A stretch of 64,000 nucleotides of DNA from Haliclystus octoradiatus (taxonomy: Eukaryota; Cnidaria; Staurozoa; Stauromedusae; Haliclystidae). The stretch lies in the NCBI GenBank assembly GCA_916610825.1, contig OU744446.1, positions 23,822,445-23,886,444 of the forward strand, read 5' to 3'. Both the position numbers and the translations under genes were made by a program. The notes under the pieces were generated by a model. The model did no database searches, had not been told where the DNA came from, and saw nothing but the letters and a program-made list of their open reading frames with translations. How positions within the stretch are numbered: position 1 is the stretch's first letter; each line of letters starts with the position of its first letter. Shown here piece by piece: positions 9,601 through 58,934 of the stretch.

Positions 9601-9837
9601 GTTTTCGTTTCGTGTAAAATTGCGGTAATTATTTTACTTCCGCGGCAAATCGTGCCGGCTCCTTCTTGTATCTACGTCATTTCGTGCAAAATTGCGGCGA
9701 CAAGTTTTGCCGCGCGGCAAAATCTCGTAGATGCACGTGGAAAAACGTACATTTTGGGATTTATGTCGAAAATTTAACGTCGAAAAATATTTTTCGACGT
9801 TAAACTTTTCGACGTTATAGCGTACAATCCTTTTTTC

Positions 9838-15232: not shown

Positions 15233-15238
15233 GTTGCT

Positions 15239-15499
15239 TCACTGGTCTATATTTTCTTCGATTTCATCACTTAGCGCATTGTTTTCTTCCAAAACTGCTA
15301 CGTAAGTATTGCTAATTATTTTGTAGCTATCAAATGCCTCTGTAATTTTTCTTCGTATATTTTCCCATTGATCCAAATACGCAACCTTGTTTTTCGTCTG
15401 CTGGTGAAACGATTCTACTTTAAACAACTTTGATCGTCTCTCCCATTTTCTTCTCAAATGTTCGGCGTCATCGGCGAAGTTTGTAAATTCTGAAGTCAT
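15239..15499 (-). pseudogene. BEL gag N-terminal part
   Basis: The 86-residue frame starts MTSEFTNFADDAEHLRRKWE and is rich in charged helix. This is the usual coiled-coil-like start of BEL gag (AYLDQWENIRRKITEAFDSY). It ends at a stop that falls at a frame change into the central gag frame. The leader to the 5' LTR (15500-15715) is about 215 bp. Confidence 0.75.
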
Positions 15500-19428: not shown

Positions 19429-19588
19429 GTTTTCATCTTGAGCAAGATGAGTTGAAGTCATGGCAAAAAGTTGCAGGTGGAGGATTTTCAAGTGTATTCA
19501 CAGCACGCCATAAAGGATCGTTAGTAGCAATCAAAGTGTTAAAGAAAAGTAAACACAAACTGCAAATCCTTGAAGGGACGCTTTTGAG
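19429..19588 (+). CDS. Kinase exon A: glycine loop and catalytic lysine
   Basis: The exon follows an AAG acceptor and an in-frame TAA just upstream, so it must start after about 19428. It ends before GTAAAT at 19589. It encodes ELKSWQKVAGGGFSSVFTAR followed by VAIKVLKK, and helix C with Glu48. Its last two bases join the first base of the next exon to make Arg53. Confidence 0.88.
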
Positions 19589-22500
19589 GTAAATTGCTTT
19601 CCTAAGCTACAAATAGGTATGTTATTATGTAGGCATACAATAATACAGTACATGTGATAACAACTTCAACTCTTTGCGTACTTTATCAAAGGAAATCATA
19701 TATCATAAAGGGTCATATATCAATATGGAAAAATACCCCTGTGAAATCAGTTCATGAACGTTTAATGGTGTTCATGAAAATTGGACGATTAAACATTCAT
19801 GAACAGTCCATAAAAGTTTATAAAGTTCATAAACTCAGCTAAATTTTTCACAGGGGTACAGTAGGTGTGGACTTACTTCTTGGTAAGTAAGATTAATCTA
19901 TGTATTCCCCTGTGATTTTGATATATTCGACAATAATAAATATGTAATTCCTTATGAAAACCATGCTCAAATTGATAATATCTCAATTATTTCATTATCT
20001 ACTTGATTAGTCCTTTTTCTATTTTATGAAAATTACTAGAAGTGGAATCTCGAGAACAGGAATTCTGCCAGGGCATCATCATCTGTATTATGTAGGCTTG
20101 TAGGAACCTTCCTGAACCATCTAGAACATTCTAGAACATAGGAGAACCTACATGACTCCCCGCATGACTCACAATGACCGTGCATGATCTAGCAGCTTCT
20201 AGCATTTATCTAAACACTATAAATACAGTAAATGAAAACTATGAAAACTATGAGAACTTAATGTACAGTCTACTATCAACATGTCAACTTGGAATTAATA
20301 TTATTATTCATAAGAAGAAATATACCATACAAATCAATTCAACCTACGTTGTTATTATCATTTCTTCAACATAATTCTACAGTTCTCATCAATTGGTCCG
20401 TCGAATTATAAGAACAACTCATCAATTGGTCCGTCGAATTATAAGAACAACTCATCAATTGGTCCGTCGAATTATAAGAACAACTCGTCAATTGGTCCGT
20501 CGAATTACAATAACAACTAATTATGAATAATCTTCAAGACTTTACAACATAATAAAATCTGAAAGTATTTTATTACAACATGGAATTGAACACAACATTT
20601 TATTCACGACCGCGGCATCAAAACAATATAACTAGATTGATTTTCACACTGAAGAACAATGGCATTTTACGTAACTAATCAAAATACGCAGAAAACACAA
20701 GAAATGGAACTAAACACAAGAAATGGAACTATAAACACAAGAGTGGAACTATGGAACTACACACGAGAAATGGAAATAAACACAAGAAATGGAACTGAAC
20801 ACAAGGAATTGGATTACCCAAAACTGAAGAGACTGAACTAAAAAAGTAAGATTTTAAAATACTGAACATAAACCATTGAACATTCCAACATTTTGGAACT
20901 TTTAAATATTGAACACTAAACATTGGACATTCCAACATCATAAAACTTTTAAATATTGAAACATTCAACATTCAACTAAGAACATTGAAACACAATGAAC
21001 ACACTAAGAATACTAAACGAACTAAGAAACACACTAGAACACACAACAGAGTTTAAAATTAAACACACAAGAATAAGCAACAACTCAAGAAAATACTGAA
21101 TTCATCAAACACACAAGAATAAGCAACAACTCAAGAAAATACTGAATTAATCAAGCACACAAGAATAAGCAACAACTCAAGAAAATACTGAATTCATCAA
21201 ACTCACAAGCAAAAAATATGACTATAAAAGAAACATTGAAGATTACCAAGCTCATAGAAGAAACTGAAATTAAACCAAATATAACACTTGTATGAAAATT
21301 TCTTTTTCTGGAAATCCAAAGCAATTAAACAAATTGGTATGCACCAAAATTGTAATGAATTTTCTCATTAACTGTTATGCAATTAGTCTATAAGCATATC
21401 TAAAACCTTCATTAATAGCTTCTTCTACTATACCATAATTACTTACATTTATATTTACATACATTTATTATTTACAATTTAGCATATATTAAAGCATTAA
21501 TCTTTCTCATTTTTAGCCTATATCATGCACCTTTATTTATGGCTCCGCCATCTGGCGGGGGGAGTTATGTAGGAACCTTCCTGAACCATCTAGAACATTC
21601 TAGAACATAGGAGAACCTACATGACTCCCCGCATGACTCACAATGACCGTGCATGATCTAGCAGCTTCTAGCATTTATCTAAACACTATAAATACAGTAA
21701 ATGAAAACTATGAAAACTATGAGAACTTAATGTACAGTCTACTATCAACATGTCAACTTGGAATTAATATTATTATTCATAAGAAGAAATATACCATACA
21801 AATCAATTCAACCTACGTTGTTATTATCATTTCTTCAACATAATTCTACAGTTCTCATCAGGCTTACACATTGATAATTTAAATGTATTCAAATGTTATA
21901 CAACAACGTAATGGAGTTGATAGGCTATCAACAATTGTGATCTTATATCATACTAGCAATTGCAATGAGCTACTCGCATTGCTGGTTAATATTGTAGGCC
22001 GCGTCAGATTTGAAGATCCCCTGCGAACAGTGGAAGTTATGATGTATAGCAGCAAAGACCCCAAAATCAAAAGATACGTTTTGAATCGATACGAAAAGTA
22101 CAAAACACAAATAAAACAGCAAGACAATTAAAAACATAGATCAAAACACAGCGATTCGAATGATACTACTTTCAAACATATTCATGGAGAATTCGGGGAG
22201 TTATTAGCGTACATGCGTTTGAAGCAACTCTCTTTTATATGTTAAGATGAATAAATCTCCTTAACATACAGTAATACATTTCAAGTATATTGAGACATTT
22301 CTCTCTGTGATTTTCAGGAATCTTGGACACGAAAATATTGTTGCATTTCGGGGCATCGGAAAATTGTCGAGTCCACTTTCTGGTATCAAATTCTCAAATC
22401 AACATTTCATTGTAATGGAATATGTGCCAGATACTGTCCATCGTTACGTTGGCCGTCGTTCAACATATGAAAGTAAAGGATTATCTCCTAGTGTTGTGTG

Positions 22501-25500
22501 GGATTTTGCACGTCAAATAGCAAATGGGTTGGCGTATTTACACACACTTAGTGAGCCAACTGCTCACCGGGATCTGAAGCCAGACAATTTGCTGGTATGA
22601 TTTTCAACTTTGGATATCATGATTCATTTGATTAGTTGCAAACTTGATCATGTATATATTTGTATACTGTGAAAGCTTCCTCACTCTGTTCTATGGTGGC
22701 CCATCGTTCTCATAGCATATTTCAACAAAAAACGATAGAAACAGAATTAAAATACAAAAAATTGTGGAATAAAAATGAAAATACAATAAAATAATAATAA
22801 AAAAAAAATAAGTAATAAAAAAATAAAAAAAAAAAATAAAAAAATATTAAAAAAATATTAAAAAAAAAAAAATAAAATAAAATAAAAAAAAAACAAAATA
22901 AAAAAAATAAAAAAATAAAATAAAAAAAAATAAAAAATAAAATAAAAAAATAAAATAAAAAAATAAAAAAATAAAATAAAAAAAAATAAAATAAAATAAA
23001 AATAAAATAAAATAAATTAAATTTAATAAAAAAAAAATAATAATAATAAAAAAAATAAAAATAAAAAAAAATAAATAAAAAAATAAATAAATAAAAAATA
23101 AAAAAAATAAATAAAAAAATAAAAAAAATAAATAAATAAAAAAAAAATAAATAAAAAAAATAAAATAAAATAAAAAAATAAAAAAAATAAAAAAAATAAA
23201 ATAAATAAATAAAAAAACAGACATTGAAAACCGAAACACAACTTCTGTTTTCATTTCAAAATCAAAATCGGTTTTACCACTTCACAGCCCATCGTTCTCA
23301 TAAGACTTCTGTTTTCATTTCAAAATCAAAATCGATTTTACCACTTCACAGCCCATCGTTCTCATAAGACTTCCGTTTGATTTTGAAACTGAAACTCGCA
23401 TGTGTCTTTCAGCCCATTGCTCTCATAGCCTGCGGTCACGCAAGCTGCGAACTGTGTGGCTGCGTCCGTCGAGCTTCGTCTATTACCCTCCGTGACAATT
23501 TGTGACAATATTAAGGATATGCTTCGATCACTTGACAAATACATACGTCTTTCAAGGACAGACTATATTGCCAGCTGTTGGTCAAGTGTGCCAAAGACAA
23601 ACCCAGTCATACTCAGTAGAATATTTTAATAATTTACACTCAATCGCTTTGAATGAATGGTTCACAATACTTTAAAGAATAATATCTACAGCAGTGCTCC
23701 CGATGTAAAATAGTGTCAAGGCAATGTGCATATAGAAGACGTAGTATAGGCATTATGTCACAATTTATATTATTTAAAAACATACTGATAAACTATAATA
23801 ACTATTTAGTATGCCTCGGCTATATGACCGATTGACCACACATCCACGCGTAAGGCCGTCTTGCGTGACTACGTCTACGAAGTATACCGCTGCTCTTGAG
23901 CGGCGTGCATATTATGCCGCACGCTATGAGAACGCTGCTAGCAACATTCGAAAATGAAAATGAAAATGAAATGTTACTTAGCAGCCCATCGTTCTCATAG
24001 CCCGCGGTACGTTTGGTCAGCGCAAATAGCTGCTCACGGTACAGTTGCTCACGGTTTTATGCAACGTAGCTATGCAGGGATTACTTTTGATTCGAATGTA
24101 ATTAGTTACAGTTACTTTTTCCTCTACTTTTTATGAATAAGTCCAAACACATCCAACAGAAGCAATGAGACATATATGAAGTATTCAAATAATATTTCTG
24201 TATTTACATCTGTTAATTAATCAAATGTTCTTGTTGACAATATAAATACGAAAACAGATACCCGACGAATATTTCACAGCGACGTCTTTTGCGTGTTTGA
24301 ATGGTATGGTCTAGACGATCCCCCTAATTACCATAACAAAGAAAATCTCAAGTTACGCGCCATTAGTTCTATTCCAGGCTTGGTTGCTATGACAATTAAT
24401 TGATCGAACAGACATATAAGACATGAAACCGTGAAACGCTCGTTGAATCACTTGAATATTATAAACTCGGAAAACAGATTGTCAAACAGAATGTCACTTC
24501 CCTGAATATAATTTCCTTGACATCCAAATTCATAACAGGATTTCCTGCAGTTGTAGGGAACTTTTTGTCTGTGTTTTTATTGTTCTTGGATGGTAACAAT
24601 AAGAACAAAATATTTTGACTAATTGAAACACAAAAGCGATCGAGAAGCTGCCAATTTTCAGCAATCTTTTGTAAAAAAAGTAACGGAAGAAAGCGAAAAT
24701 TTTGTGAAAAAGTAGCGAGTAATCGTTATTTTACTTTCAATCCTAAATGTAACTAGTTACAAGTAGAAGTTACTTTTACAGAAAAGTAACTAGTTACAAG
24801 TAGAAGTTACTAAAAAATGACTATTACCAGTAACGTCGTTACTTTTGTAATCGTTACTAACATCTCTGTCTATAATGCATGTATGTGTTAACTTTGTTAT
24901 AATTATTGAAGGCTATCATATCCGTTTTTATTATTACGAAGCCTTTTTCACTCAAGTGGTTATCATATCTGAATACACGCTATCACATGGTTTTTATATA
25001 ACATGAAACATATTATTGTTAATCAGCTCATAAATTCACGCTTGTATTTAACCACGAATGAGCCAACATGCGAAAACAAGGTCACACCTAAAATCATATT
25101 TGCTTGAGCATTTGTGTATTTCTCTGTCTCCTCTGCACCATGTACACTGACCCGAATTTTTACAAATCTGTCATTAGCTGTTGAAACTGTCAACTGTCAC
25201 TGTCATAATCTGTCTTTTGTCTAGCGAGATTAATCCCTGCATAGCAACGTTGCATGAAACCGTGAGCAACTGTACCGTGAGCAGCTATTTGCGCTGACCA
25301 AACGTACCGCGGACTATGAGAACGATGGGCTGCTAAGTAACATTTCATTTTCATTTTCATTTTTGAATGTTGCTAGAAGCCCATCGTTCTCATAGCGTGC
25401 GGCATAATATGCACGCCGCTCAAGAGCAGCGGTATACTTCGTAGACGTAGTCACGCAAGACGGCCTTACGCGTGGATGTGTGGTCAATCGGTCATATAGC

Positions 25501-28500: not shown

Positions 28501-31500
28501 TAGCACCTAAATCAAGATCAATTCAAAATGTGCCTAAGTAATTTCCTAACTCTGCACCGATTTATATGATTCCGCTTTTATTGGATTGGTCACAAATAAA
28601 ACGTTGGCCAAAAATGTTGTAATATTATAATATAGCTACTTTTTATTCACAATACAGTATTGATACATTTAAGACCCATGAACGACACATTGAAAACTTG
28701 AAATCTGTTAATAACAATAATAACAATAAATAAACAATTTATTGACCAAAGACATATATGTAATATCCAAAAATTATGACGAAAGAACGACATATGCTCA
28801 GATCAATATCATCGTTGTAGTTCAAATGTGAATTGAATAATGATCAAAACAGAAAATTGCATTCATTATCTGATCGGATTTCGTGCCAAAGTCAGAGTAA
28901 AGTGTTGAAATGTGTTTCCTGCCAAATTGACGGGTTTCTTTTAATAAATCTGATGCTGTTAGGATAGTGCTACATTAAAATTATGAGGTGCGGGGAAAAA
29001 TTGACTACGTTTCATTCAAATTAGGTGCGCAAAATAGCTGTTTAAGTGGGCTGACGATCATACATAAATGTGATCGGATTAAGTGCGGAAATAGATTAGC
29101 CTGGTGCGGCTGGCGCATTTGTTTGATGCTACTAGAGAAAGTGCGGAAAGCATGTTTTTAGGTGCTGCAATAATTTTAACCGCTTAAAAAATAGTGATAA
29201 CAAGCATCCATTTTCGCAGTTGCAATATGTATAAAGAACTTTCGTGCCCTTTAGAATGTAACACTTCCGTTCTTTTACAGCGCAATTAAGAGAATCAAGA
29301 TCCAAGTACGCAGACGCAGATCCAGGAATTATTTTATGGGGGTCAAAATTAATTATATCACTTGACACGCCCATTTTGTACACCAAAGAAAATTGAGCAA
29401 ATAGAATTGAGTCAGTCAAAAAATCAAATAATAGTATCTATTACAAAGCGTGTTTTATATCTGGGTTTCTATTAATCTATCTGCCTTTCAAAAATTGGGG
29501 CAGGGGATATACATTTTATGGACTGCCCCTTTATACATGCATTTCACGGAAATGGGCCTGGCAGAGAAAATTTATCTTTGAGACAAGGGTATGTAAAGAC
29601 CTGTATCCGCGCCTGCTACTATGTCTATTTTTTAAAGTGGCATTGTTGTAAATGAAGTTTCAGTGTAATATTTTGTTCAAATTTTGAAATGTTTATACAG
29701 TTTAAAAAATAAAATTTGCAAATCCCACTGTATAATTTGTGCAGTGACACATTCAAAATAGTACTAATACATTGCTCCTTAAATACATAATAATATTTCA
29801 AATTTTAAATTACATCACAGATGCTTTTCAAGGCGTGGAATTTGTTACTTGTTGCTAAAAAGCTCATGAACATTCTATGAACATTTCATGAACTTATAAA
29901 CTTTTTTTCATGATGTCATCAACAATTTCATCATGATGTTTTGTCATTTCCCTTCAAATGTTTGATGATGCCATCAACAGTTTTTCACAAAAAGAAACAT
30001 TGTTTCACAATTTTAAAGATTGGGATACTATCATTGGTGATAAGAAAGTTGATGTTTCTATTCATATCTGAATCTCGTAGTGATTTTTATCTTGACTAAT
30101 TAATTCAATTGACTGTATTAAATTTGAATATAATACTTCAGAACTCTATAGGCCTTTTAGTAAAATCAATAGTCAAGCATACATAACATGGTAGCAAGTT
30201 TCAAAGTTTAATATTTACTGTATAGTATTGATGATGATACTGAAAAATTACTGAATTATCCCTTAGTTCCTTGTCTTTCTTCGCAGCTAGATCCTTCAAG
30301 TCTAAAAATTAAATTAGCTGATTTTGGACTGGCTCTGAGCGACATCTATGGTGGTGAAAATCAGGAATTTAATCTTCGTTGGGCTTCTCCTGAGTTATGG
30401 GAGGAATATCTCTTGCAAATTGATTCATGTGCAGATGAAAGTCAGTATTCTCCAGAGGAAACATATCCGTCATTTGATACAGGTAAGATATAAATGTGCC
30501 TACTAGTTTGAAGGAATCACAAGCAATAAAGCAAAAGTTGAGAATAGTAAAGGCTGCCATAAAAAGGCGAATTAGAAGTCTTTTCAAGGAACCCCTGCAA
30601 AATATTCATGAAAAGTTCATGAGATTGTATACCATCAAAAACATTCACTTTCAAAAAGGTTGTGAACTGTCCATGCAGTTCTCTGGAGGAAAATTCTGAT
30701 TAAGATTCTCGTAAGCATTTCAAGAACATTTTGACATAGGAAAATTGAAATCACTTAAATCTTGTAAATTAGCAGATTTTTTTTTTCATTTATTTATTTT
30801 ATCAAAATTGACAGGGAAAACAGAGGGAGTCACATAATATGATCTCTCACTAAAATGTAGCCTCATTACAACTTATGTTGATAAAAATTAATATAAATTT
30901 AAGCATGCAAAATTATTGTTTGTTTTACATGCTGCATAATATATATATATATATATATATAGAAATTATGACTCAAAGATTACGAGTTCGGTCCGTTACT
31001 CTGAGTTTCGCGTAAAGACGCTCTTCAGACGGTTTATTCATAATGAAAAATATACGTGTATCAACGCAAGTTTATACATATCATACTAAAGGCGTTTCTA
31101 TTGTCTAATTATCGCATATCTATTGAAGTTCTTAGTCTATTGTTATTCTATTATGTTTTTGTATCCTTATAATTCTCAAGGTAAAATTTGTTCTCATGTC
31201 TGCACTTGGAAATTAGTTCCGACCTTTTGTTTAATAAATTGTCATATTCATAGTAAATAATATGCAGTTTTTCTGTGAGGCATAAATTACATTTTTTCTG
31301 GATATTATTATAGGCAGCAGCAGTTGCTAGTATCGACCATTTGATGTTGTAGTTGATGTTTTTTTCTTTTAATCTCCAGACAAGTTTTGATAATTCTGTG
31401 CTGTTCTGATACTTTTTGTTTCTAAAAGATGATTTATGCTGCGTGTGGCGCTGTTTGAAAGTGCCTTCTGTTAGTCCGATGTAATTTTTGCCACAGGGGT

Positions 31501-48099: not shown

Positions 48100-48145
<46 letters not shown>

Positions 48146-51100
48146 AAAAAAAATTACGGATTACGGATATTGGTCCGCTATTCTGTATTCCGTATTTTAA
48201 TTCGGTGAATCCGTTAAATTTGATTGCGGACTTCTCGGTCGTTACGTCTGAAAAGATCGGCTGCTATCTAAAAAAATTATTTTCGATCGTAGCTGATGAA
48301 TTTGGCAGCTAAATGAGACAAACAAAGGGGGGGTGTTACACAATAACATTGACCATGCCTTGGCCAATCTAAAAGAGAGGAAGCATTTATTAGCCAATCG
48401 GCTTTGACTACATTTTATAATGAACTATTGGATTGAGAAACGAATTTGTGAAGCTGCCTATTTGTTTGGTCTACAAGTAACGTTTTTTTTTTTTTTTGGC
48501 GACACAAGCAAGGTAAACTAACTGCCTTGAGATTTACTTGAATAGTAACGTAAATTTGCATTTAAGTTTTGATTTATAATTCAATCGGCTCCAATTTAAT
48601 CTACACTCGTATAACAACATCGAAAGTTACAACAATAACCAGCGATCAAGGTGCGATAAATTGAATATATTTTTTCATTTACCGCTAACAGCAGTTTATG
48701 TTTTTGTAAATAAAACTGACAGTACTATTGCACGCATACATTCCTCGACCTTGGTTTGAAATCGTGACCTTATTGAAGTCGTGATAAACAATGTTTCGGA
48801 TAATTAAATCGTCACAGTTGAGACACTCAAAAACAAAAACAAGACATATTTTATGAATAAGCTCAATGACCAATAACTCGCTTTTTGTAACACATGCCTC
48901 GGTTTTCAGACTTATATGGCCACAAACAAGAAACTTAGAACAACCCTTCACCGTTTTTTAATGACAATAAATAGACACAAAAAAACACAACGAATTGAAT
49001 TGAGTGTCAAATAATCATTGAAACACTATGATAACATTAAGAAAAGAGTAAATAAGATAAAAACAATTATAAATCCACTAACTACTATTTTGTCAGTGAA
49101 GGAAATCAACAGAATAGAAATAAAATAAACAAACTAGACCAACATATATATAAGGACTAACGCCGTTGCAACTGCCTGCTGTCGGAAGGCTTGAGAGGTT
49201 GTACCAAAGCTGGCACATTAGATTGTTTATTGCAGTCAACACTTCGATGGCTTTCTGAACATTTTGAACATATATGATTGAATCGGCATACTCCATACCG
49301 CGATGAACACCATCCACCGTTCCATGATGTGCAAACTCGTAATCCGTTAGTGGAACCTCGTGGTTCTGCACCTCTTGTAGCTGTACCACCTTTTTCCGAA
49401 CGCGTGTGGTCTAGTCGAGAGCGAACAACAGCTCCAGCAGTATGGTACGTGTATAATTGATGGTTGATTAGAGACCAATCTGATTGTTGACTAGCTGCAG
49501 CGTGTTGTCGAAAGGCTGTATCATAGGACAACCACGCCCAGCAATTGAATTGGCGGAATAGCCGGATTATGACAAGTTTATAAGACGATAAGTCCTTCCA
49601 TCGTCCAGGGCAATAAGTGGTTAGTACTGACATAAATATTGTGAAAGCTTCCACCCAGCTGATAATATCGTCAATCTTTCGACGATTTGATTTTGGCTCA
49701 CCAATTAAAATAGCTAGACCGTCCATAACTAATTGTGGCTCTGACTCAACGTCAACCACCGAAGGCGACAATAGTTCAGATAGCTCTATGAAGCGACCAT
49801 TGACTATCTGACCAACCAGCTTAGCTGGAATTGGCGAGTAACCTGGACCAATAATATAAGGTTGAAAGACCTGTGGCAGCGTAGGCAATAGGCTGCTGGT
49901 GATTGGTGTCGTAGTATCCAGTGATGCAGATGTACCAGATAAATAAGTGGCAGCTGCAACGGCGTCTCCGCTAGACAACGGCATAGAAAAAGTATTCACA
50001 AAAGAGGGCATAGACAATAAACCTGACGTACCTGGATTAACGCTGGCATTTGCAGTTGGTAAATGTGCCGATGGTGCGCTTACCGGAGCCGATGGTGATG
50101 GTCTACTAGCTGCCATTACAGCTTGTGCCACGTCGTTAACAAAATCCTGGCGTTGTTGAGGGTCTTCAAACATACCACTCGGAAAAGGAACTTCTGAAGT
50201 GACTTGAGGAGACGTAACCAAAGATGATCTTGATTCCGGTATCACATAAGGCATTGAAGCAATCGAATCACGACTGTTTCGTGTACGTCTTGACATATTT
50301 GCGTTGCGTTTAATTAAATGCGAATTCGTTCGTTCGTTATCGACCTCCTAGCAAGCTAGCACATGCAAGAATGACTACACCCTTACAGTATCACGAGACT
50401 TACCCTCTGTTGTGGAGAAGAGGCTGACCAAGATCACATGATTCCAGGTAATGCAGTGCACTTATGCCTCGTGGCATCTGATGGCATACATTCAAACGAG
50501 GCAATTCCAGCATAACGATTGTACATAGGACGTACTTCGAACCCCCTCAAAAAGGTCTGGATTTTAACCTCAACTACATGATATATAGTTACAATTAAAT
50601 GAAATTTTACTGAGGTTAAAGTGGGAATAAACCCCCAGACTATCTTTACATATATAGTAGGACCCGACGTGAAAAAAACAATGGCGTAATTTTTTTTTCG
50701 ATCTGGAAATTATTTCTTGGTGAAAAATGCCTTCAAAGTGGTGTTTTGGCCCAAATGTCGCTGAGGGAAAAAAAGGGATTGGATCTAGCTTTATGACGAC
50801 AAAGTCACAAGTCGTGTGGTTTTTCTAATAGACTTTAGATCGGATTAATCACGCGATGTTACGTTTGAGATGGCGTAGCTCTGTAACGGCAATCTATTTT
50901 TCTCTCCCACAAAACTGAGGTAAGGAAGAACATATAAACTCAAGAGTAGCAAAATTCCAGAGGATTTAATGATTTTAAAGTTCACGAATTTGAAGAAAAT
51001 AAAAATCAGAAAATATTTCATTCGTAGCGCGCGTTATACAGATTATATTTTGACATATCATTCTCACACATATTTAACACATATCAAAAGATTCTCTGGT

Positions 51101-54100: not shown

Positions 54101-57100
54101 TTTTCAGTGCATTGATACATGTTTCTGTTTTCATCAATCTTTGTTTTTCTGTTTCAAATATTCAATCGGTGCTTGGGTACATTTGGTGGGAGGTCCAGTC
54201 ATCCCTGGCCCTCCTCCAATTACCTTGGAGGGAAAGGTTTGGTGGTGTCAGGTCTGCTATTGGTCAACTAGCTATTGTATTTTGCTGCCAACCTCCCACC
54301 AACCAAGCACCTAGACCAAATTATGGTGACGTTAAGGATTTGAGATGAAGGGTTTAAACATAGGAAACACTATATTTGCATTGAAAGGAATGAAATTAGA
54401 AATTCAGTGAGTTTACAGGGTTTACAGTGATTGCCATTTACCTGCAAAACAGTTTGTTATTTCATAAAGTTTTTACAAACAGTTCATAAACTGTCAATGC
54501 AATGTTTATGAGATGTGCATGAACTGATTAATTATTTGCAGGAGGTATTCTGTCACAACATATGGCTCATTCATGTAATAAAATATCAGCTATGAAGGCT
54601 TTGTTTCTAAAACGGCCTTCATTGATGGAAGTTCTAATAATAGTACCCAGCATATAGCGTTATGAATAATTACATTCATAGGAGGTGGGACATTGATGTT
54701 ATTTGCAGCAAGATTGGCTGTAATACTTTTGACGTTGTCATTTTTGATGATTTAAAACACTTTTCCCCAGTTTTCGAAGAATCAGTCGAAGAATAAATGA
54801 TAAAATTGAAATGATTAGCTTTTTGGAATAAATTTCAACATTCCCCATCAGTTTGAATAAATTTCTTCACATTTCTTTCTCACCCTCCTCCCATTACCCC
54901 CAAGTATTAAGGTAAAGAGGTTAGTATATTAGATTCCACTGTATTATCAGTGTGACTGGTGTCTGGTGGTGGAGACAGGCCTCTCTTCCAGCCAGCTTAT
55001 GTCCACAATGGCTGTATCCCACCATACAAGCACCTATGCCAAATTCTAGATATCTTAGACAGTTAAGTTTAAAATATAATTAAATAGATATATTTGATTG
55101 GTTTTGTGTGAGAAGATATATCGAGTGCTGTGTAGAATGTAGATCATACATTTGAAATACTGTAACATATTATCAATTTATTGTCTAGCTTATTATATGT
55201 CAGCTGATGTGTATGCATACGGATTGGTGTTGGCCTTTTGTTTGACTGGTGAACTTCCATGGGGCAGTCTTGTAACTACCAACACATTAAATGGAAAAGC
55301 GAACTACTCATATCTTGAAAGTCTGATTAGAATACCTGAGACGCTGTCTAAAGATGACCCACTTAGAAGACTCATCTCCGGATGTAATCAAAAGAAGAGG
55401 GAGGATAGGTTTTCATCTGCCGAAGAAATTGTTGGTTATTTCTTCAGAGGTTAGAAATTCAAACAGATTGACCATTTATATATAGCAAGTTACTATCATT
55501 AATTAATACATAATCCTCACTAATAAATATGTCTGTCCGACACGCATGCCTCTCTAGCAACTATCCCAGAGTAAGTTCAACCGGAAGCAGGCTGACTGAT
55601 GACATTCAATTGATCTGCATACTAAGCAAGTGGCGCACAGTCTCCTATGAGCTATTGATATTTGGCTCACCAGACTACGAGTAACAAGAAAACAAGAAGG
55701 CATCAGAAAAACACGAAACTGAGTGATTGATTTTCACCTTAAAATTTTCTCCTGAAGTGACTCGACTGAACCAAATATCATTATATCAATAGCTCATAGG
55801 TAACTATGCGCCAATCGCTTTGAATTAGTTTACACAACTTTTATAAACATTTGCATGACTTTTTCTCCTATAAAATGTTTTGACTCTTGGTCAAATTGGA
55901 AGTTCTCGTTTGTGATGTCAAATTTGAATTGTAAGATTGATTGTGTTTTAGATCTTTGTTTTCATATGGTGATTTGGTGTCATAACTCTAAACCAATCAG
56001 ATTGATCGAATCAATTTCGTTATAATACAAATGAAGTTAGCCTGTGACAATGTTGACTCTATCACAAAGATCACAATCCAGCCCACTACTTAATTAACCA
56101 CTACAACTGGTAAACGCTGCAAATTATCATACAACTTCAGTGCTCTAAATACAAGAGACGAGGCTGTTCTACAATTAGGCATTAGAAAGGCATTAGATGG
56201 TCAAGTACGGTAGGCATTAGAGAGGCAGCGCATGCGTGCTAAAGTCTAATATTCAAAGATGTCCAGAATGGGATTGTGTCTAGATGTAACCATGCAATGT
56301 TGAGGACATTTTAAAATATTATTATGTAACCAATTACTTTTTCTTTTGGGATGGGAAAGCATTGTGATCAATTCATTACACGGGTCTCCAGAAGTAGGCA
56401 TTAAAGACACATGCATTGCATTTAGCATATTTTGAAATATAGTCTCAACTATACAGGTAATTAAAAGACAATAACATGTTTTGCTTGAATTTCTCTAGCT
56501 GGCATCTTTGATAAACCGCAAAACAACATTTCAGAATTCCTAAAATGACCTTGACAACAATCAGTTAATTAGTTTGAAAACATTGGGTTTCTGTCAAAGT
56601 TGTTGCATCTCTTTCTGTTACATGCTAGAGGTAGCTTTATGCTGGCAATCTGTCTTAAATCATACAACACTTGTTTTCCAGATCAAGTGAATCCATATTT
56701 GAAGGATGCAGCCTCTGCTGAATTTTTTTGCTGTGGCTTTATGAAGGACACCAGTATCTTTGTTGCAGATAGCTTAGTTGATGAGGTAAACTCTTTGTTC
56801 AGTTTTAAAGATAGGCTACAGTATTTTCTAGACTAAAGAGTTTAACACTTGTCCCAAGTTAGCTGAGTGTAAATTATTTGCCTTGATTGCTTCCTGCAAT
56901 TTAGCTTTTGCATCGCACTGAGTTATTCCGAACTACAATCACAACACTTGCCATTGCGCTCAATGCATGACAGAGGTTCATCCAGTAACTCAAATGATAG
57001 CTAATACCCCCTAGTGCGCTCAATGTATTGTACCTCTTCACCTGCTACGCACAACTTGAACTTACATGGCTCACACCACCAGCTAATTACAAAAGACCAA

Positions 57101-58934
57101 ATAAGAGACTAGCAAGTAGAGGCATTACTTTTTATTAACTATACAAAATATAATAAATTGTGTATCTGCATTGTTATGTTACAGAAATCTGAGGGATACA
57201 ACCAAACACAAGCAGAACCAATTGGATACCCTGCTAATTGTTTAGTGTGTGAGGTTGATACTACACCAAAAGAAGGCAAACGTTTTCCAGTTGAAAATAA
57301 CTGGGATAGAGAAAGTATGTACCGTGATGGATATAGTAAATTCAAAAAGGTAAATTCAAATCATATTCAATTATGTATGTTAGACCACCCCTTTCGATTA
57401 TTGGCAATTATTCATCTTAATAAAAGCTCTCAATAAAATATACCCTACTTTAAGCGGTGGCGTAGTTTTGTTCTAGATCTATATTCCGATATCTGGACTC
57501 AAAATCGTGACTTGCTTAAATTCCATACATAAACTAGTAGACTATCATCACTGTAATGGCTGGGTATCATCAGTTATTTTTTAATTAAAAGTCAAAGGAA
57601 CGTTGGAAGTTAGATTTTTGTTGACATTGATTAGAATTTATTGAGAGAAAAAAGTCAAGTCTAAAATAGCTCACACATAGAACAATGAGATGCTGGTGCA
57701 GCAACAGAAAAACCTGAGCTCCCTTCCTGTACTCAATTAATTAGCTCACAAAATAATTACTTTCAAATTGTATATTTTCCTTTTTTTACTGATTAGCAAG
57801 CTCATGAGGGTCACATAGATGATAATCCAACTGTTCCACTTAGAAGTCTTGATCCAACACGGGAAGGGTTAGAAGAAAAACAAGAGGTTAATCTCACATT
57901 TGTTCAAGGAACATATGTTCACCATCGTGCAATGCGTGATATTTGGCGATCACTTTCTGAAGAAGAAAAAAGTCAAGCCTTACCATGTAAATTGACTGTT
58001 AGTCCAGCGTATAGTACATCATTTGGCCTCCATGTTGCTATTATCACTGCTGATCCACAACCAAGATTTTTATTTTGCAGAAGATCAATCAAAGGTATGT
58101 GTTAAGCAGGCATCTTGTTATCAAAATAAGTTGATCTCTGTTTTATGTTTTAAAATAATAATACAAGGAGGAAAGAAAACAGTAGGTCCACAAAGACCAC
58201 TTTGCATTGCACATATAATCATAGTCAATTGTATTTGCTTCATCTACATCCTTGCCATTTGCTGGTATCCCATCATAATTGAAAAAATAATTGAAATGAT
58301 AAAGTATTGTTAAAATGATGCTTTTATAATTCTTCTTGATGACCCAGAATGGGGAGAAATTGAAAATATTTACCGTATTGAGTTTTGATAATAGTTTATG
58401 TTTATAATTCTTATTTTGACAGTTGGTATGTCATCTCCGGGGAAGTTTACATGTGGTGCAGTTGAGAGTGTTTCTGTTAAAGATTATGTAACATTACCAG
58501 AGCATCCTGAGAAAACATTTGTGTCACTTCTTAAAACAGCAGCAAGAGGCCTCTTTGAAGAATTACGCATTGAACTCAAAGAAGAAGAATTTGGTGCCAT
58601 TTGTCTCAGTACAATTTACTTGAAATATGACACACATGAATGGGGTCTTTGCGGTTTTGTTGATTTGAACGATAAAAGAATTGCACCAGAGCGTCGGTTA
58701 ACTGCTGAGATTATTCGTTCTAGATTTACAAGTGGCCCAAAAGATAAGTTTGAACATAAAGATATCCATGATGTTGATTTCACAATGGATAGTATGATGA
58801 AATTTATTCAAGAAAATCAAAATGATTTTGCTAGTTCTGGAAAATTAGTTGCTGTCAAAGTTATGCAAGCATTCTTTGGCCTTTTAGCTGTTGAACATGC
58901 GTTTAGTGCTGCTTTGAATCCAACACAAGATTAG
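19429..58934 (+). CDS. Protein kinase with C-terminal Nudix-like region (eight visible exons)
   Basis: Eight exons (19429-19588, 22318-22594, 30287-30482, 55189-55449, 56682-56785, 57185-57349, 57797-58094, 58423-58934) join with matching phases into about 656 residues. Residues 10-297 form a protein kinase with all catalytic landmarks: GGGFSSVF loop (16-23), VAIK lysine 35, helix-C Glu48, HRDLKPDN (136-143), DFG (157-159), SPE (179-181), helix-F Asp217 and a late Arg284. It should phosphorylate Ser/Thr (HRDLKP), resembling tyrosine-kinase-like families. A linker (298-450) leads to a Nudix-like region (about 460-650) with LHVAIITAD, FLFCRRS, SPGKFTCGAVES and AARGLFEELRI. That helix keeps R..xEE, but the usual RE glutamate is Gly and the late Gly is Arg, so hydrolase activity is doubtful. 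The 5' end is not found. Introns of 2.7, 7.7 and 24.7 kb are filled with transposons. No established ortholog name is claimed. Confidence 0.88.
20099..20391 (+). repeat. TRIM 5' LTR
   Basis: The 293-bp LTR starts TGTAGGAACC and ends TCATCA. The duplicated target GGCT precedes it. A chance 66-codon frame inside it is reproduced exactly in the other LTR. Confidence 0.88.
21568..21860 (+). repeat. TRIM 3' LTR
   Basis: It is identical to the 5' LTR wherever I compared them, is preceded by a G-rich polypurine tract (21553-21564), and is followed by GGCT. Confidence 0.88.
21985..22131 (+). other. Orphan exon-like reading frame in kinase intron A-B
   Basis: After an acceptor-like ttaatattgtag, an open frame runs GRVRFEDPLRTVEVMMYSSK and onward to a stop at 22129-22131, ending YEKYKTQIKQQDN. 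Composition and charge pattern look like real protein, yet it cannot be spliced into the kinase without breaking helix C. I do not recognise the family. It may be an exon remnant or processed fragment of another gene, or chance. Confidence 0.3.
22318..22594 (+). CDS. Kinase exon B: hinge and HRD catalytic loop
   Basis: The acceptor is ttttcag at 22311-22317 and the donor GTATGA begins at 22595. It encodes residues 54-145, including HENIV, the hinge FIVMEYVPD, the long helix E ending GLAYLH, and AHRDLKPDNLL. It ends in phase 0. Confidence 0.9.
22692..26442. mobile_element. 3.75-kb giant foldback element
   Basis: Two arms (22692-24083 and 25231-26442) are inverted copies of each other around a loop of about 1.15 kb. 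The ends read TATGGTGGCCCATCGTTCTC and its complement, flanked by the 6-bp repeat CTGTTC (22686-22691, 26443-26448). The motif ccatcgttctcata recurs at least five times per arm. Each arm also holds a several-hundred-base A- or T-rich tract (22790-23215, 26040-26390). No transposase is visible. It sits in kinase intron B-C. In RNA it would form a very long hairpin. Confidence 0.88.
24084..25230. other. Loop of the giant foldback
   Basis: This is unique DNA apart from short alternations of gttactttt and agttacaagtagaagttac (24700-24860) that form small hairpins. No gene is visible. Confidence 0.55.
26449..27745. other. Intron DNA with a tandem duplication of about 150 bp
   Basis: Two diverged copies of a segment beginning gtttgtttacaaatttgata lie at about 26893-27030 and 27037-27185. 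Nothing else is recognised, and no exon is seen. Confidence 0.5.
27746..28030. mobile_element. MITE, 285 bp
   Basis: Inverted termini of about 45 bp start tgataagaagacaa, followed in both by (t/g)aatagacgtaattttt. The 65-codon open frame inside shows no domain and is taken as chance. Confidence 0.65.
28140..29180. mobile_element. Element-like region with opposed subterminal repeats
   Basis: The left half has about a dozen copies of a cgcacctaaat-type motif (28160-28570). The right half (28985-29170) has the complementary ttaggtgcgg / aagtgcgg motif several times. Opposed clusters of short transposase-site-like motifs around a unique centre are typical of non-autonomous hAT or CACTA elements. 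Exact ends and a target duplication could not be fixed. Confidence 0.5.
29181..30286. other. Intron DNA, nothing recognised
   Basis: This is AT-rich sequence upstream of kinase exon C. The minus-strand frame 29132-29419 has no recognisable motif. Confidence 0.5.
30287..30482 (+). CDS. Kinase exon C: DFG and activation segment
   Basis: The acceptor is cttcgcag at 30279-30286 and the donor GTAAGATA begins at 30483. It encodes residues 146-210 with IKLADFGLALSDI and RWASPELWEE, followed by an acidic activation-segment extension (CADESQYSPEETYPSFDT) longer than usual. It ends in phase 1. Confidence 0.9.
30483..30955. other. Start of the 24.7-kb kinase intron C-D
   Basis: AT-rich sequence runs to a (TA)n microsatellite at 30938-30960. 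The Penelope-like element begins at that microsatellite. No exon is visible. Confidence 0.5.
30956..32590 (-). mobile_element. Penelope-like element, left arm of head-to-head pair
   Basis: A 1.63-kb, 5'-truncated copy reads leftward. Its tail (30961-31150) ends at a (TA)n microsatellite. Its mirror image is the right arm at 32613-34143 plus 53318-53425. The two are separated at the centre by only 22 bp. Confidence 0.88.
31151..32590 (-). CDS. Penelope-like reverse transcriptase with GIY-YIG endonuclease (5' truncated)
   Basis: The open frame of about 480 codons contains FDIENYYPSI, the catalytic YRDDG and FLDITLNLNNG. A Cys-rich spacer (CNCRTKANCPLDNRC) leads to a C-terminal GIY-YIG nuclease with KNYIGLTEGTFKQR. 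This order is diagnostic of canonical Penelope-like elements, which prime reverse transcription at a nick made by the nuclease. The N-terminal RT motifs are missing. The frame stays open across the centre to 32674, but those extra residues are antisense of the opposite arm. Unlike the other arm, this copy has no internal frameshift. Confidence 0.88.
   Translation of the reverse strand, partial: VINWFSSIGNKRKHSFATFDIENYYPSITEKLLLDAINYAQKFTNISQNEIKIILHARKSLLFDNNTPWMKKNKGQLFDVTMGSYDGAEICELVGLFILDKITKKYGIGNIGLYRDDGIALLKNTSGPKAERVRKDLIKIFKSFDLKITIQTNLKVINFLDITLNLNNGTYQPYRKPNNEPTYINAESNHPRNIIKQIPIAINQRISDLSINEEAFETSKAPYIAVLKSSGYAAEFSYKECNSTEPITNRQEKRRRIIIWFNPPYSLNVNTNVAKKFLTLIDKHYPKTHKFNKIFNKNNVKVSYSCMANMETIIRCHNKKILDTKSNEGRKKLCNCRTKANCPLDNRCLTSSVVYNANVTTTRDPCGKNYIGLTEGTFKQRHTQHKSSFRNKKYQNSTELSKLVWRLKEKNINYNIKWSILATAAAYNNIQKKCNLCLTEKLHIIYYEYDNLLNKRSELISKCRHENKFYLENYKDTKT
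32591..32612. other. Centre of the Penelope inverted pair
   Basis: A 22-bp asymmetric spacer lies between two perfect 20-base palindromic flanks, gaggaaaaccaattgataac and its complement. Both copies are truncated at the same position here. Confidence 0.85.
32613..34054 (+). pseudogene. Penelope-like RT/GIY-YIG, frameshifted copy
   Basis: It has the same domains as the left arm: FDIKNYYPSI, YRDDG, the Cys-rich spacer and NYIGLTEGTFKQR. A 2-bp AT insertion at about 32817 (ccatatgg instead of ccatgg) splits the frame into 32613-32825 and 32822-34054. A few substitutions separate it from the left arm. It is also 5'-truncated, so it is inactive. Confidence 0.88.
32613..34143 (+). mobile_element. 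Penelope-like element, right arm (proximal part)
   Basis: This is the inverted duplicate of the left arm. It stops at aaacttg (34143), and the missing last 108 bp of its tail resume at 53318, so the arm is split by a 19.2-kb insertion. Together the two parts have nearly the same length as the left arm. Confidence 0.85.
34144..35994. repeat. Unclassified repeat family, copy 1, left part
   Basis: 34144-34600 matches copy 2 (44584-44593, then 50599-50619, then 52692-53110) with two insertions removed, so it is the empty-site version. Further right is a 533-bp tandem duplication (gcagccagcc... at 35176 and 35709), the second copy of which is interrupted by the gypsy element at 36000. No gene is visible. 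Confidence 0.75.
36000..36202 (-). repeat. Gypsy 3' LTR
   Basis: It is 203 bp long and differs from the 5' LTR by a few substitutions. Confidence 0.9.
36358..37065 (-). pseudogene. Gypsy integrase C-terminal half
   Basis: The frame has the last two DDE residues of the integrase core (MFDNGVFT and GNGIVERNHR) and then a C-terminal segment (DVVYVKPSDQVCC...VSHLRKVPL). A TGA at about 37021-37023 and a one-base change at about 37060-37070 separate it from the N-terminal half. Confidence 0.85.
37059..38300 (-). pseudogene. Gypsy RT C-terminal half, RNase H and integrase zinc domain
   Basis: The RT catalytic motif is YIDD in DNYIDDVIIN. RNase H follows with VVWCDASN, INIAELEA and IMIDSATV. The integrase HHCC zinc site is HNIHHF...CEVC, and the first integrase aspartate is in LAVDVTHYLK. 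The upstream frame change at about 38300 is one extra T in a TTTT run. Confidence 0.88.
38300..39177 (-). pseudogene. Gypsy protease and RT N-terminal half
   Basis: The aspartic protease motif is LVDTGCSTSIIG, with a later CVLGMDII. The RT fingers follow with VRPVMDFRILNEYIP and TMLDLKKAYLQLHV. The frame then slips by one base at about 38300. Confidence 0.88.
39180..39878 (-). CDS. Gypsy gag
   Basis: The open frame of about 232 codons starts at ATG 39878 (MSIKITDIVKRF). It has a capsid-like helical region (FSARKLRDDETVDAFLADLR) and one CCHC zinc knuckle (CYRCRGVGHIARNC). It appears uninterrupted. The stop lies next to the protease frame start, so a frame change or readthrough would be needed between gag and pol. 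Confidence 0.88.
   Translation of the reverse strand: MSIKITDIVKRFNGALGEDFPSWIEKVELVAKLQGIDGLELFVPLFLEGAAFAVYQQLSEADKKDFKLLKAALMKVFADNQFSAYEQFSARKLRDDETVDAFLADLRRLGGLFDSSLNDNLLKCAFVVGLPNEASAQLRAFTNISEFSLCDIVEKSRVLVTLSNRENSTCYAAKFQQGSTKNSHSKFRGCLICYRCRGVGHIARNCQGILKNDDVVENEDGEGMLAPVSSPH
39895..40097 (-). repeat. Gypsy 5' LTR
   Basis: It is 203 bp, TG...CA, and is followed on the plus side by the TGATG duplication. Confidence 0.9.
40103..41555. repeat. Unclassified repeat family, copy 1, middle part
   Basis: It continues the segment cut by the gypsy element (gttaaaaagttgaaattatgc... also at 35642). Near 41343-41470 is a gcttggttggtgggagg / ccaccaaccaagc segment. Its complement recurs at 44520-44548, 53180-53270 and 54289-54305. 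No gene is visible. Confidence 0.55.
41556..42120. repeat. Minisatellite of about 65 bp, forward cluster
   Basis: Eight to nine units contain agcatagcaacaacaac...atagcggcatggcccaaagc. They create long but meaningless Leu/Val-rich reading frames on the minus strand. The complementary units form the cluster at 43380-43835. Confidence 0.85.
42121..43379. other. Spacer between opposed minisatellites
   Basis: No conserved reading frame is seen. 43287-43301 is an A run. Nothing else is recognised. Confidence 0.5.
43380..43835. repeat. Minisatellite of about 65 bp, inverted cluster
   Basis: Six to seven units of ttgggccatgccgctatcattgatgttgttgttgc are the reverse complement of the cluster at 41556-42120, giving a foldback of about 2.3 kb. 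Confidence 0.85.
44130..44583. repeat. Terminal part of the unclassified repeat family
   Basis: It closely matches 53910-54355, including tactgccctgaaaatcaac and the paired ccaccaaccaagcaccta segments. It ends gagataaagggttt, the same end as the copy that finishes at 53317. Confidence 0.8.
44591..44694 (-). repeat. Split direct repeat B2
   Basis: It matches 45269-45372 and contains the hairpin ccccaccctttggtgggg. Confidence 0.85.
44929..45270 (-). repeat. Split direct repeat A2
   Basis: It is 342 bp long and matches the element's 5' end at 50256-50597 with no visible difference. Confidence 0.88.
45269..45372 (-). repeat. Split direct repeat B1
   Basis: It lies directly against A2 and matches B2. 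The B1-A2 junction has the arrangement expected of Ngaro-type ends. Confidence 0.85.
45490..46515 (-). CDS. Ngaro-like tyrosine recombinase
   Basis: The 341-residue open frame has a SAM-like N-terminal DNA-binding part (SLAPSTRRTYSSAQHRFLVF, then IKVYLSAVRALH). The catalytic core follows: first Arg in LAYFGFLRSSEF, a Lys-containing strand near RIKASKTDSF, the box HSFRIGAATVAG (His and second Arg), GRW, and the nucleophile Tyr in AYLLYTR. All residues expected of an active enzyme are visible. It overlaps the RT/RNase H frame by 85 bp. It should integrate the circular cDNA without making a target duplication. Confidence 0.9.
   Translation of the reverse strand: MAGILQTGTLCQRLSNTARQPVVDGPGINQLQARCQQLICNSLAPSTRRTYSSAQHRFLVFSTQHGYSSPCPTTESMLCLFVTHLSDSLKLPSIKVYLSAVRALHLEQGFADPLINCARLHRLCQGIKKTHLDSTIPRLPITDSLMEIIHRSLNFSCEDHIMFWAACTLAYFGFLRSSEFIVPNLQSFDSAIHLQLSDLSFDSVITPTCMRVRIKASKTDSFREGCYVHIGLGSSRLCAVAAMSAYLFKRGEKAGPLFLYKSGDTLSRLRLSSWLRSIFVESKIPGNFSTHSFRIGAATVAGRNGIPDHIIKALGRWNSQAYLLYTRTSPASLSTFSSVLA
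46431..48089 (-). CDS. Ngaro-like reverse transcriptase and RNase H
   Basis: The 552-residue open frame has RT motifs WRLIVDFSAP, AKFDVEAAYRNIPV, LPFGLRSAP and catalytic HYLDDFIMVG, and the GIELDS motif. RNase H follows with ELFTDASGSMGYGAYY, YKELFPIVVA, FRCDNEAVVHIL and IADALSRF. No internal stop is present. Its first Met is followed by a hydrophobic stretch, and the start is uncertain because an A-rich run (48096-48152) lies directly upstream. Confidence 0.9.
   Translation of the reverse strand: MSELLDVAQCVLIFVLAASLMPSIASITPLQVDRFAYYLTSHPNSLFASYVISGIREGFRLGFNPMQRLKSSKKNNASAHKYSSVIDNYLDNEVYLGRVAGPFNIPPINGLQVSSFGVIPKKNQPGKWRLIVDFSAPCGSSVNDGIDKSEFSMHYVQLDQILSMIGSLGVGALMAKFDVEAAYRNIPVHPTDRALLGMKWRGNYFVDLTLPFGLRSAPFIFNAVAEAVEWILSFHFDVSNIVHYLDDFIMVGPPDSDQCARQWYLAQEVCRELGLPLNSKKCEGPSTSMVVLGIELDSLTQTACLPADKLANLQSLIESWVSKRRCNRNELESLIGHLHHAAKVVWPGRTFIRRMLNLLGSFRSNSHPVRLNCEFKQDLFWWHNFLGQWNGVSFWLFPGMPTVAEFELFTDASGSMGYGAYYQGNWFNGIWSKYQAEQSIAYKELFPIVVAAHIWGSDWTRCHVNFRCDNEAVVHILNCRTSKVPIIMRLLRKLLFVAAQQNFSFTSQHIAGINSGIADALSRFHWQVFFKLAPSAKDCPTLLDNRLLMDLA
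48096..49156. other. Non-coding gap between Ngaro-like gag and RT
   Basis: A nearly pure A run of about 57 bases (48096-48152) and a T run (48483-48498) flank AT-rich DNA without recognisable coding. Ngaro frames usually lie closer together, so an extra insertion here is possible. I see no terminal repeats proving it. Confidence 0.45.
49157..50296 (-). CDS. Ngaro-like gag
   Basis: The 379-residue open frame starts MSRRTRNSRDSIASM within repeat A1. A Ser/Pro/Ala-rich region is followed by a helical capsid-like segment (DIISWVEAFTIFMSVLTTYC, FRQFNCWAWLSYDTAFRQ). A Cys/His-rich C-terminal part has CTSWNGGWCSSRYGVCRFNH and CSKCSESHRSVDC. This matches the gag layout of Ngaro and DIRS elements. 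The first ATG is in the duplicated A repeat, so A2 carries the same start region. Confidence 0.82.
   Translation of the reverse strand: MSRRTRNSRDSIASMPYVIPESRSSLVTSPQVTSEVPFPSGMFEDPQQRQDFVNDVAQAVMAASRPSPSAPVSAPSAHLPTANASVNPGTSGLLSMPSFVNTFSMPLSSGDAVAAATYLSGTSASLDTTTPITSSLLPTLPQVFQPYIIGPGYSPIPAKLVGQIVNGRFIELSELLSPSVVDVESEPQLVMDGLAILIGEPKSNRRKIDDIISWVEAFTIFMSVLTTYCPGRWKDLSSYKLVIIRLFRQFNCWAWLSYDTAFRQHAAASQQSDWSLINHQLYTYHTAGAVVRSRLDHTRSEKGGTATRGAEPRGSTNGLRVCTSWNGGWCSSRYGVCRFNHICSKCSESHRSVDCNKQSNVPALVQPLKPSDSRQLQRR
50256..50597 (-). repeat. Split direct repeat A1
   Basis: This is the 5' terminal repeat of the Ngaro-like element on the minus strand and includes the gag start. Its copy A2 is at 44929-45270. 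Confidence 0.88.
50620..52691. mobile_element. TTAA-target foldback element, copy 2 (complete)
   Basis: The 2072-bp element is AGTGGGAATAAACCCCCAG... with the complementary right end, flanked by TTAA at 50616-50619 and 52692-52695. Terminal inverted repeats are about 210 bp (50620-50835 against 52478-52691). The site without it is at about 34165-34180 (gaggttaaacac). No transposase frame is present. Non-autonomous Kolobok-like is the best guess; piggyBac-like is the alternative. Confidence 0.88.
52696..53317. repeat. Unclassified repeat family, copy 2, right part
   Basis: 52696-53110 matches 34172-34590 almost base for base. It then jumps directly to the terminal segment (53112-53317), so copy 2 lacks the long middle found in copy 1. 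Confidence 0.8.
53318..53425 (+). mobile_element. Penelope-like element, displaced end of right arm
   Basis: The complement of 30961-31067 resumes here (cgttgatacacgtatatt...gagtcataatttctatat). It continues the arm interrupted at 34143. Confidence 0.85.
53426..55188. other. End of kinase intron C-D
   Basis: It contains a partial, older copy of the unclassified repeat's terminal part (53910-54355). A further relative lies around 54890-55040 (agtgtgactggtgtctggtgg). The frame 54007-54348 is inside the repeat and is not a gene. Confidence 0.55.
55189..55449 (+). CDS. Kinase exon D: C-lobe helices F to I
   Basis: The acceptor is attgtctag (ending 55188) and the donor GTTAGA begins at 55450. 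It encodes residues 212-297 with SADVYAYGLVLAFCLTGELP, then GCNQKKREDRFSSAEEIVGY, the C-lobe with its conserved Arg. It is phase-compatible with exon C 24.7 kb upstream (completing Ala211) and with exon E (starting Asp298). Confidence 0.9.
55450..56681. other. Kinase intron D-E with a small hairpin MITE
   Basis: 55632-55820 has inverted ends (ggcgcacagt..ctatgagctattgata and complement ..tatcaatagctcatag..actatgcgcc). Nothing else is recognised apart from short palindromic stretches at about 55535 and 56225. Confidence 0.5.
56682..56785 (+). CDS. Kinase gene exon E: linker
   Basis: The acceptor is gttttccag and the donor GTAAAC begins at 56786. It encodes residues 299-332 (QVNPYLKDAASAEFFCCGFM and onward), with no known motif. 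It sits right after the kinase domain and splices in frame on both sides. Confidence 0.82.
57185..57349 (+). CDS. Kinase gene exon F: linker
   Basis: The acceptor is tgttacag and the donor GTAAATTC begins at 57350. It is exactly 55 codons (residues 333-387) in phase 0, with ANCLVCEVDTTPKEGKRFPV. No known domain is recognised. Confidence 0.82.
57797..58094 (+). CDS. Kinase gene exon G: start of Nudix-like region
   Basis: The acceptor is actgattag and the donor GTATGT begins at 58095. It encodes residues 388-486. The second half (TVSPAYSTSFGLHVAIITAD, RFLFCRRSIK) reads like the first beta strands of a Nudix fold, where the substrate-side strand precedes the Nudix box. Confidence 0.82.
58423..58934 (+). 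CDS. Kinase gene last exon H: Nudix-like box and C-terminus
   Basis: The acceptor is attttgacag (ending 58422), with a TAG stop at 58932-58934. It encodes residues 488-656. SPGKFTCGAVES corresponds to the pGkw..gG.ve start of a Nudix box. An insertion of about 20 residues precedes the helix AARGLFEELRI, in which Arg and two Glu are kept. WGLCGFVDLND would be a later strand. A hydrophobic helix (MQAFFGLLAVEHAFSAAL) closes the protein. No nearby AATAAA is seen, and candidate sites lie more than 1 kb downstream. Confidence 0.85.

Follow-up and report, generated by a model that had tools for sequence, protein, structure and literature searches.

Gene structure and surrounding repeats

The window analyzed here is a 64,000-nucleotide stretch of the genome of the staurozoan cnidarian Haliclystus octoradiatus (262 Mb, 33 contigs), located at positions 23822445 to 23886444 of its contig. 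It contains a spliced gene of eight exons (A to H), all on the plus strand, that joins a protein kinase to a C-terminal Nudix-like region predicted to be of the NUDT22 type. All eight acceptors read AG, all seven donors read GT, the splice phases agree, and the joined reading frame runs through all exons as 656 open codons followed by a stop. The original prediction, made from the letters of the window, had described a single phase-consistent gene of this kind, and the presence of the kinase and Nudix-like pair in one gene was confirmed.

The Pfam Pkinase match spans exons A to D. Exon A (19429 to 19588), recognized by its AG/GT borders, open frame, and conserved positions, carries a short pre-kinase stretch, the glycine-rich loop, the VAIK lysine, and the alpha-C glutamate. 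Exon B (22318 to 22594; splice borders and a match in the search of its own genome) covers the end of the kinase N-lobe through HRDLKPDN, exon C (30287 to 30482; splice borders and conservation) holds DFG, the activation segment, SPE, and the beginning of the stretch preceding helix F, and exon D (55189 to 55449; splice borders) encodes the C-lobe. The NUDT22-like unit begins in exon E (56682 to 56785) with NPY...FFCCGF...IFVADS, approximately where the superposition of a homolog model on NUDT22 starts. Its N-terminal part continues through exon F (57185 to 57349; splice borders) and ends in exon G (57797 to 58094; splice borders and homolog model), which also contains the first Nudix strands (FGLHVAIIT and FLFCRRS). 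Exon H (58423 to 58934; splice borders and conservation) encodes the split Nudix box (GAVES...AARGLFEEL), the HEWG strand, GPKDKFEH, the SSGK helix, and the stop codon.

These eight exons were borne out, but exon A, the first of them, begins inside the protein. Among 58 homologs aligning at the catalytic lysine, a median of 62 residues (quartiles, 56 and 75; range, 1 to 125) lie ahead of its first residue, and this stretch is poorly conserved. No 5' exon was found by tblastn of the window, in the window start plus 20 kb upstream, or genome-wide with the first 107 residues of a relative (best E = 4.2). A whole-genome search with the window protein gave 28 matches, a lower bound since only the best candidates were scored, of which eight were the exons of this gene, in order and on one strand. 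The remaining 20 were weak (E = 1.1e-8 to 9e-4) and confined to query residues 6 to 313, within the kinase region, so that no second copy of the C-terminal part was present among the 28 matches.

The 24.7-kb intron between exons C and D is filled with transposons. At 31151 to 34054, a pair of nearly identical coding stretches run in opposite directions, the plus-strand copy being split over two frames; we take them, by motif, to be Penelope-like reverse transcriptases with a GIY-YIG end, and the two open reading frames (ORFs) scanned there had no Pfam match. Further into the intron are an element resembling the long terminal repeat (LTR) type (36358 to 39956, minus strand), with DUF7047 and below-cutoff integrase and RNase H-like matches, and one resembling the DIRS type (45490 to 50347, minus strand), with RVT_1 (E = 3e-15) and a tyrosine recombinase-like ORF (Phage_integrase E = 1e-4, below cutoff). 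In the intron between exons A and B, two identical copies of a 293-base direct repeat (20099 to 20391 and 21568 to 21860) flank about 1.2 kb lacking any ORF of 90 amino acids, which looks like a small LTR-type element of recent insertion. Upstream of exon A, BEL/Pao-type retrotransposon ORFs occupy 9634 to 15246 on the minus strand (Pfam Peptidase_A17, Integrase_H2C2, and DUF5641), and at 4463 to 7711 a 195-base unit is repeated in tandem 16.4 times with 93% matches. Elsewhere in the genome, five spaced kinase-like matches at C7:5314018-5440684, four with the same score and two internal TGA stops and the fifth with three stops, may represent kinase-like genes or their remnants in a local array.

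The kinase and its family across animals

The kinase domain was identified by Pfam at residues 12 to 291 of the window protein (E = 2e-32; 113 bits against a cutoff of 31.7). The VAIK lysine, alpha-C glutamate, HRD aspartate, DFG aspartate, and APE glutamate of eukaryotic protein kinases are all present, as had been claimed from the sequence of the window. Across 65 aligned rows (the window protein and 64 homologs), the catalytic lysine is kept in 59 (5 gaps), the HRD aspartate in 60 (4 gaps), and the DFG aspartate in 60 (3 gaps). Foldseek with a full-length Nematostella model, which has two additional N-terminal helices, ranked CTR1 highest and ASK1 next, closely followed by CDK2, ERK2, and others; by sequence, the top match was GSK3, over part of the domain, and the B-Raf match spanned the whole domain. 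Because these lists are mixed, they do not settle the kinase group, and we assign the kinase as TKL-like (tyrosine kinase-like) with moderate confidence. The fold and catalytic residues are common to this family and to TKL-type kinases such as CTR1 and B-Raf; we know of no TKL kinase with a Nudix unit. The stretch linking the APE motif to the helix F aspartate, encoded by exons C and D, is 35 residues long in the window protein, and in the family it has a median length of 19 (range, 11 to 80; at least 25 in 27 of 61 rows) and a median acidic fraction of 0.24.

A search with residues 300 to 624 of the window protein recovered the 64 homologs at E of 1e-3 or lower; the weakest had an E of 1.7e-59, with identities of 39 to 58% and coverage of 73 to 100%. 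Organism names were attached to 42 of them (17 Mollusca, 15 Cnidaria, 4 Branchiostoma, 3 tunicates, and 1 each from Lingula, Glandiceps, and the sponge Oscarella), the other 22 carrying none, and both Nematostella and Ciona are represented. No vertebrate, arthropod, or nematode occurs among the 42 named homologs, a count made without a taxon-by-taxon search for absence; the same database yields many vertebrate NUDT22 proteins. Most records are named "uncharacterized" or "hypothetical" or bear names taken from other kinases. The family is ancient, with relatives from sponge to chordates.

The Pfam kinase and the C-terminal part occur in one protein in 62 of the 64 homologs, so the domain pair for which related species were to be checked recurs across animals. 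Some homolog frames nearly fill a short contig (P0044, 732 amino acids in 2,319 bases; P0043, 726 amino acids in 2,346 bases), and the record of P0024 is labeled as the complete ORF of an assembled transcript; these are therefore presumably transcripts that carry both domains on one mRNA in relatives. Through such unbroken frames, it appears indirectly that exons E to H belong to the same transcript as the kinase exons. These data bear on the concern that annotation or assembly wrongly joined two genes across the intron between exons C and D, which contains several retroelement ORFs, in a species whose exon joining was read from genomic letters alone. Such an artifact is highly improbable and was rejected: the kinase domain extends across both exon C and exon D, the splice phases agree, and the two parts are together in nearly all homologs, including P0044.

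A profile search with the family alignment returned 65 proteins (59 with E < 1e-55; weakest, 7e-28; 40 to 67% identity to the window protein), which by length and identity look like members or exon pieces of the kinase-NUDT22-like family, and among these 65 no separate enzyme family was reached. In a tree of 41 C-terminal domains, comprising the window and 40 chosen from 125 proteins of two homology searches, hexacorals (support, 100/98), lancelets (99/99), tunicates (100/99), and bilaterians together (98/98) formed groups, with molluscs less firm (90/71). The octocoral was separate from the hexacorals, the window protein sat on a long branch with seven other sequences (94/85), and the deep branching order lacked resolution. 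Descent that was mostly vertical would agree with this topology. The likeness to prokaryotic Nudix proteins noted in the original prediction gained no support from a pattern-based scan of prokaryote genomes (59 matches, none confirmed). A scan of the same type in viral contigs gave 7 matches, none confirmed; both scans can miss distant relatives. We rejected transfer from prokaryotes, in favor of which nothing was found.

The NUDT22-like unit and its altered Nudix box

Compared with solved structures, a confident model of homolog P0011 has a Nudix fold in its C-terminal region, so the predicted structure did not turn out to lack the fold, an outcome that would have refuted the original prediction. 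The fold had been expected in the last 210 or so residues, but the unit is larger: model residues 94 to 413 superpose on NUDT22 as one piece, including the N-terminal part that belongs to the overall NUDT22 fold. We predict that the NUDT22-type Nudix unit spans about 330 residues. The likeness to NUDT22 extends to a predicted fold over nearly the whole protein, the insertion in the box, and a late SAK motif; it supports a specifically NUDT22-like C-terminal domain, a point that, like the great age of the family, had not been made in the original prediction.

The structural matches of the homolog model also include TIRR, with an entry for its complex with 53BP1, and syndesmos, as well as the NrtR Nudix domain with adenosine diphosphate (ADP)-ribose (PDB 3gz8) and AraR (5bs6). 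TIRR acts through protein binding rather than catalysis. The unit might likewise be a pseudo-Nudix domain for docking or scaffolding that binds no small molecule, and the loss of the first box glutamate would agree with this. We regard such a role as quite unlikely, as the most conserved stretches, placed by motif, fall in or close to the Nudix box and matching strands and would fit a ligand pocket. These stretches include CGAVES, RGLxEE, YLKxDxHEWG, GPKDKFEH, and SSAK. Within the protein, conservation is highest in the Nudix-like part (median identity to the window protein, 0.55 over 63 rows, versus 0.38 over 60 rows for the kinase).

The strand, turn, and AARGLFEELRI helix read earlier as a Nudix signature are present in the window protein, which departs from the hydrolase motif GX5EX7REUXEEXGU by an insertion in the box and a glycine in place of the first metal-binding glutamate. 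The insertion adds about 16 residues rather than the 20 or so first estimated, with 30 residues from the box G to R compared to 14 in GX5EX7R. Of the two residue changes originally described, RE to RG is near-universal, whereas the late G to R is variable (G in 40 and R in 23 of 65 rows). In the family helix RGLxEE, the first glutamate position is glycine in 64 of 65 rows and cysteine in P0063, and the next two positions are glutamate in 65 and 60 rows. In all 16 vertebrate NUDT22 sequences compared, these three positions read E, D, and E without exception, as opposed to G, E, and E in this family. One would expect a near-invariant catalytic change within a very conserved domain from a ligand sensor. 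The first glutamate of NUDT9 is reported to bind Mg2+, with an RILGEE mutant inactive, and human TRPM2, lacking this glutamate, is described there as no enzyme (PMC6461439). The earlier suggestion that the region may bind rather than cleave its ligand fits the near-universal glutamate-to-glycine change.

The genome also carries a separate NUDT22 gene on another contig (C4:30003459-30006908, minus strand; E = 1.1e-18 to sawfish NUDT22), known as two unspliced open stretches, one with GGHPEPK and a second about 1.2 kb on that reads KEVRDEV. BLAST pairs the latter with the box helix of NUDT22 (E = 0.002), and E, D, and E are therefore kept there. In the NUDT22 homology search, only the 7,996 candidates with the most words in common with the query were scored; among the best 120 of 571 matches, all named rows were vertebrate, which leaves the gene of this genome as the one invertebrate NUDT22 in the analysis. 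Five NUDT22 gene models (P0216, P0242, P0196, P0198, and P0223) also contain a 2'-phosphotransferase (PF01885) or DnaJ (PF00226) domain and are probably adjoining genes merged by annotation.

Proposed function

Human NUDT22 is reported to convert uridine diphosphate (UDP)-glucose to glucose-1-phosphate and uridine monophosphate (PMC10101856), and Arabidopsis AtNUDX9, likened by its authors to vertebrate Nudt22 (28 to 31% identity), to hydrolyze guanosine diphosphate (GDP)-mannose (PMC4566977). Because of these substrates, a nucleotide sugar would, by analogy, be the first candidate ligand of the NUDT22-like unit. We consider it probable, with some reserve, that a TKL-like kinase is joined to a NUDT22-type unit that binds a nucleotide sugar with little or no hydrolysis and that binding switches the kinase. 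The pathway we infer is as follows. A putative conserved pocket in the unit would bind a nucleotide sugar, with a UDP-sugar as a first guess; the bound compound would be hydrolyzed poorly or not at all because the first metal-binding glutamate is glycine; binding would change how active the attached kinase is or what it partners with, turning it on or off; and phosphorylation would thereby report sugar-nucleotide or pyrimidine status.

Several points weigh against this proposal. Sequence similarity to NUDT22 (the animal UDP-glucose/galactose hydrolase, with AtNUDX9 as its plant relative) is weak and at the detection limit (hhalign P = 0.024 and 0.034), so that it is the fold that carries the assignment to NUDT22. 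With a larger alignment, the hhalign score was 24.5. The reversed profile scored 13.9, and 60 block-shuffled controls averaged 16.8 (standard deviation, 3.5), two of them scoring as high as the NUDT22 match and the best reaching 30.5. The pairing itself is sensible: RRS, the box helix, and the SAK motif coincide, as does the segment running from LT to the E that follows GP. In the profile search that had been proposed, 2 of 11 family members matched Pfam NUDIX, with E = 0.11 at best. For the C-terminal 269 residues of the window protein, Pfam, NCBIfam, and PADLOC scans gave nothing useful. PDB sequence searches with a single sequence or the 11-member profile also gave nothing useful, and about half of the protein length has no Pfam family. 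Both structure models are of homologs rather than the window protein, domain placement is uncertain in the full-length Nematostella model (predicted template modeling score, 0.52), and the 5' end of the gene is missing from the eight-exon model.

The chemistry of related enzymes adds a further caution. NUDT22 is said to be without a conventional Nudix box (PMC5688067) yet hydrolyzes UDP-glucose (PMC10101856), and AtNUDX9 is reported to be active with replacements at the motif arginine, at three glutamates, and at two aliphatic positions (PMC4566977); since both hydrolyze with unconventional boxes, an altered box alone is no proof of lost activity. These cases, and the retention of two box glutamates and the HEW glutamate in most of the 65 rows, would suit a bifunctional enzyme whose Nudix unit still hydrolyzes through its remaining acidic residues, placing kinase and hydrolase in one pathway as in TRPM2 chanzymes. 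We find this unlikely, given that the first glutamate is replaced by glycine almost throughout the family, that it is kept in vertebrate NUDT22 and in the separate NUDT22 of the same genome, and that NUDT9 RILGEE mutants lacking it are reported to be inactive (PMC6461439).

Known systems offer partial parallels to a kinase switched by a bound nucleotide sugar. NUDT22 itself is a stand-alone enzyme that retains E, D, and E, unlike the present family with its leading glycine and preceding kinase. NrtR and AraR, which act as bacterial Nudix transcription factors, likewise place a Nudix fold in a regulator but are prokaryotic, with a DNA-binding output and no kinase. TRPM2 is a signaling protein whose C-terminal Nudix domain, NUDT9-H, in its vertebrate form lacks the first glutamate and is reported to bind rather than cleave (PMC6461439 and PMC5671594); it differs in having an ion channel as effector, the NUDT9 subfamily, and ADP-ribose as ligand. 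The kinase and Nudix parts are each of a known kind, and their combination was not found described in the literature searched; no publication on this family was found by titles and abstract starts, with most subscription papers and preprints outside coverage.

The family is ancient and apparently unstudied, with members in laboratory species. On a broader view, which we put forward tentatively, it may represent animal-wide signaling (none of the 42 named members is from a vertebrate) in which a kinase directly reads a nucleotide sugar via a noncatalytic NUDT22-derived domain, with the ancestral NUDT22 enzyme still encoded in the same genome and able to use up the same ligand. To our knowledge, no animal protein kinase is known to sense a sugar nucleotide directly. 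The sensor reading gives a sharp prediction for a single purified domain, and, if it is true, UDP-glucose or a compound like it would act directly as a signal inside the cell.
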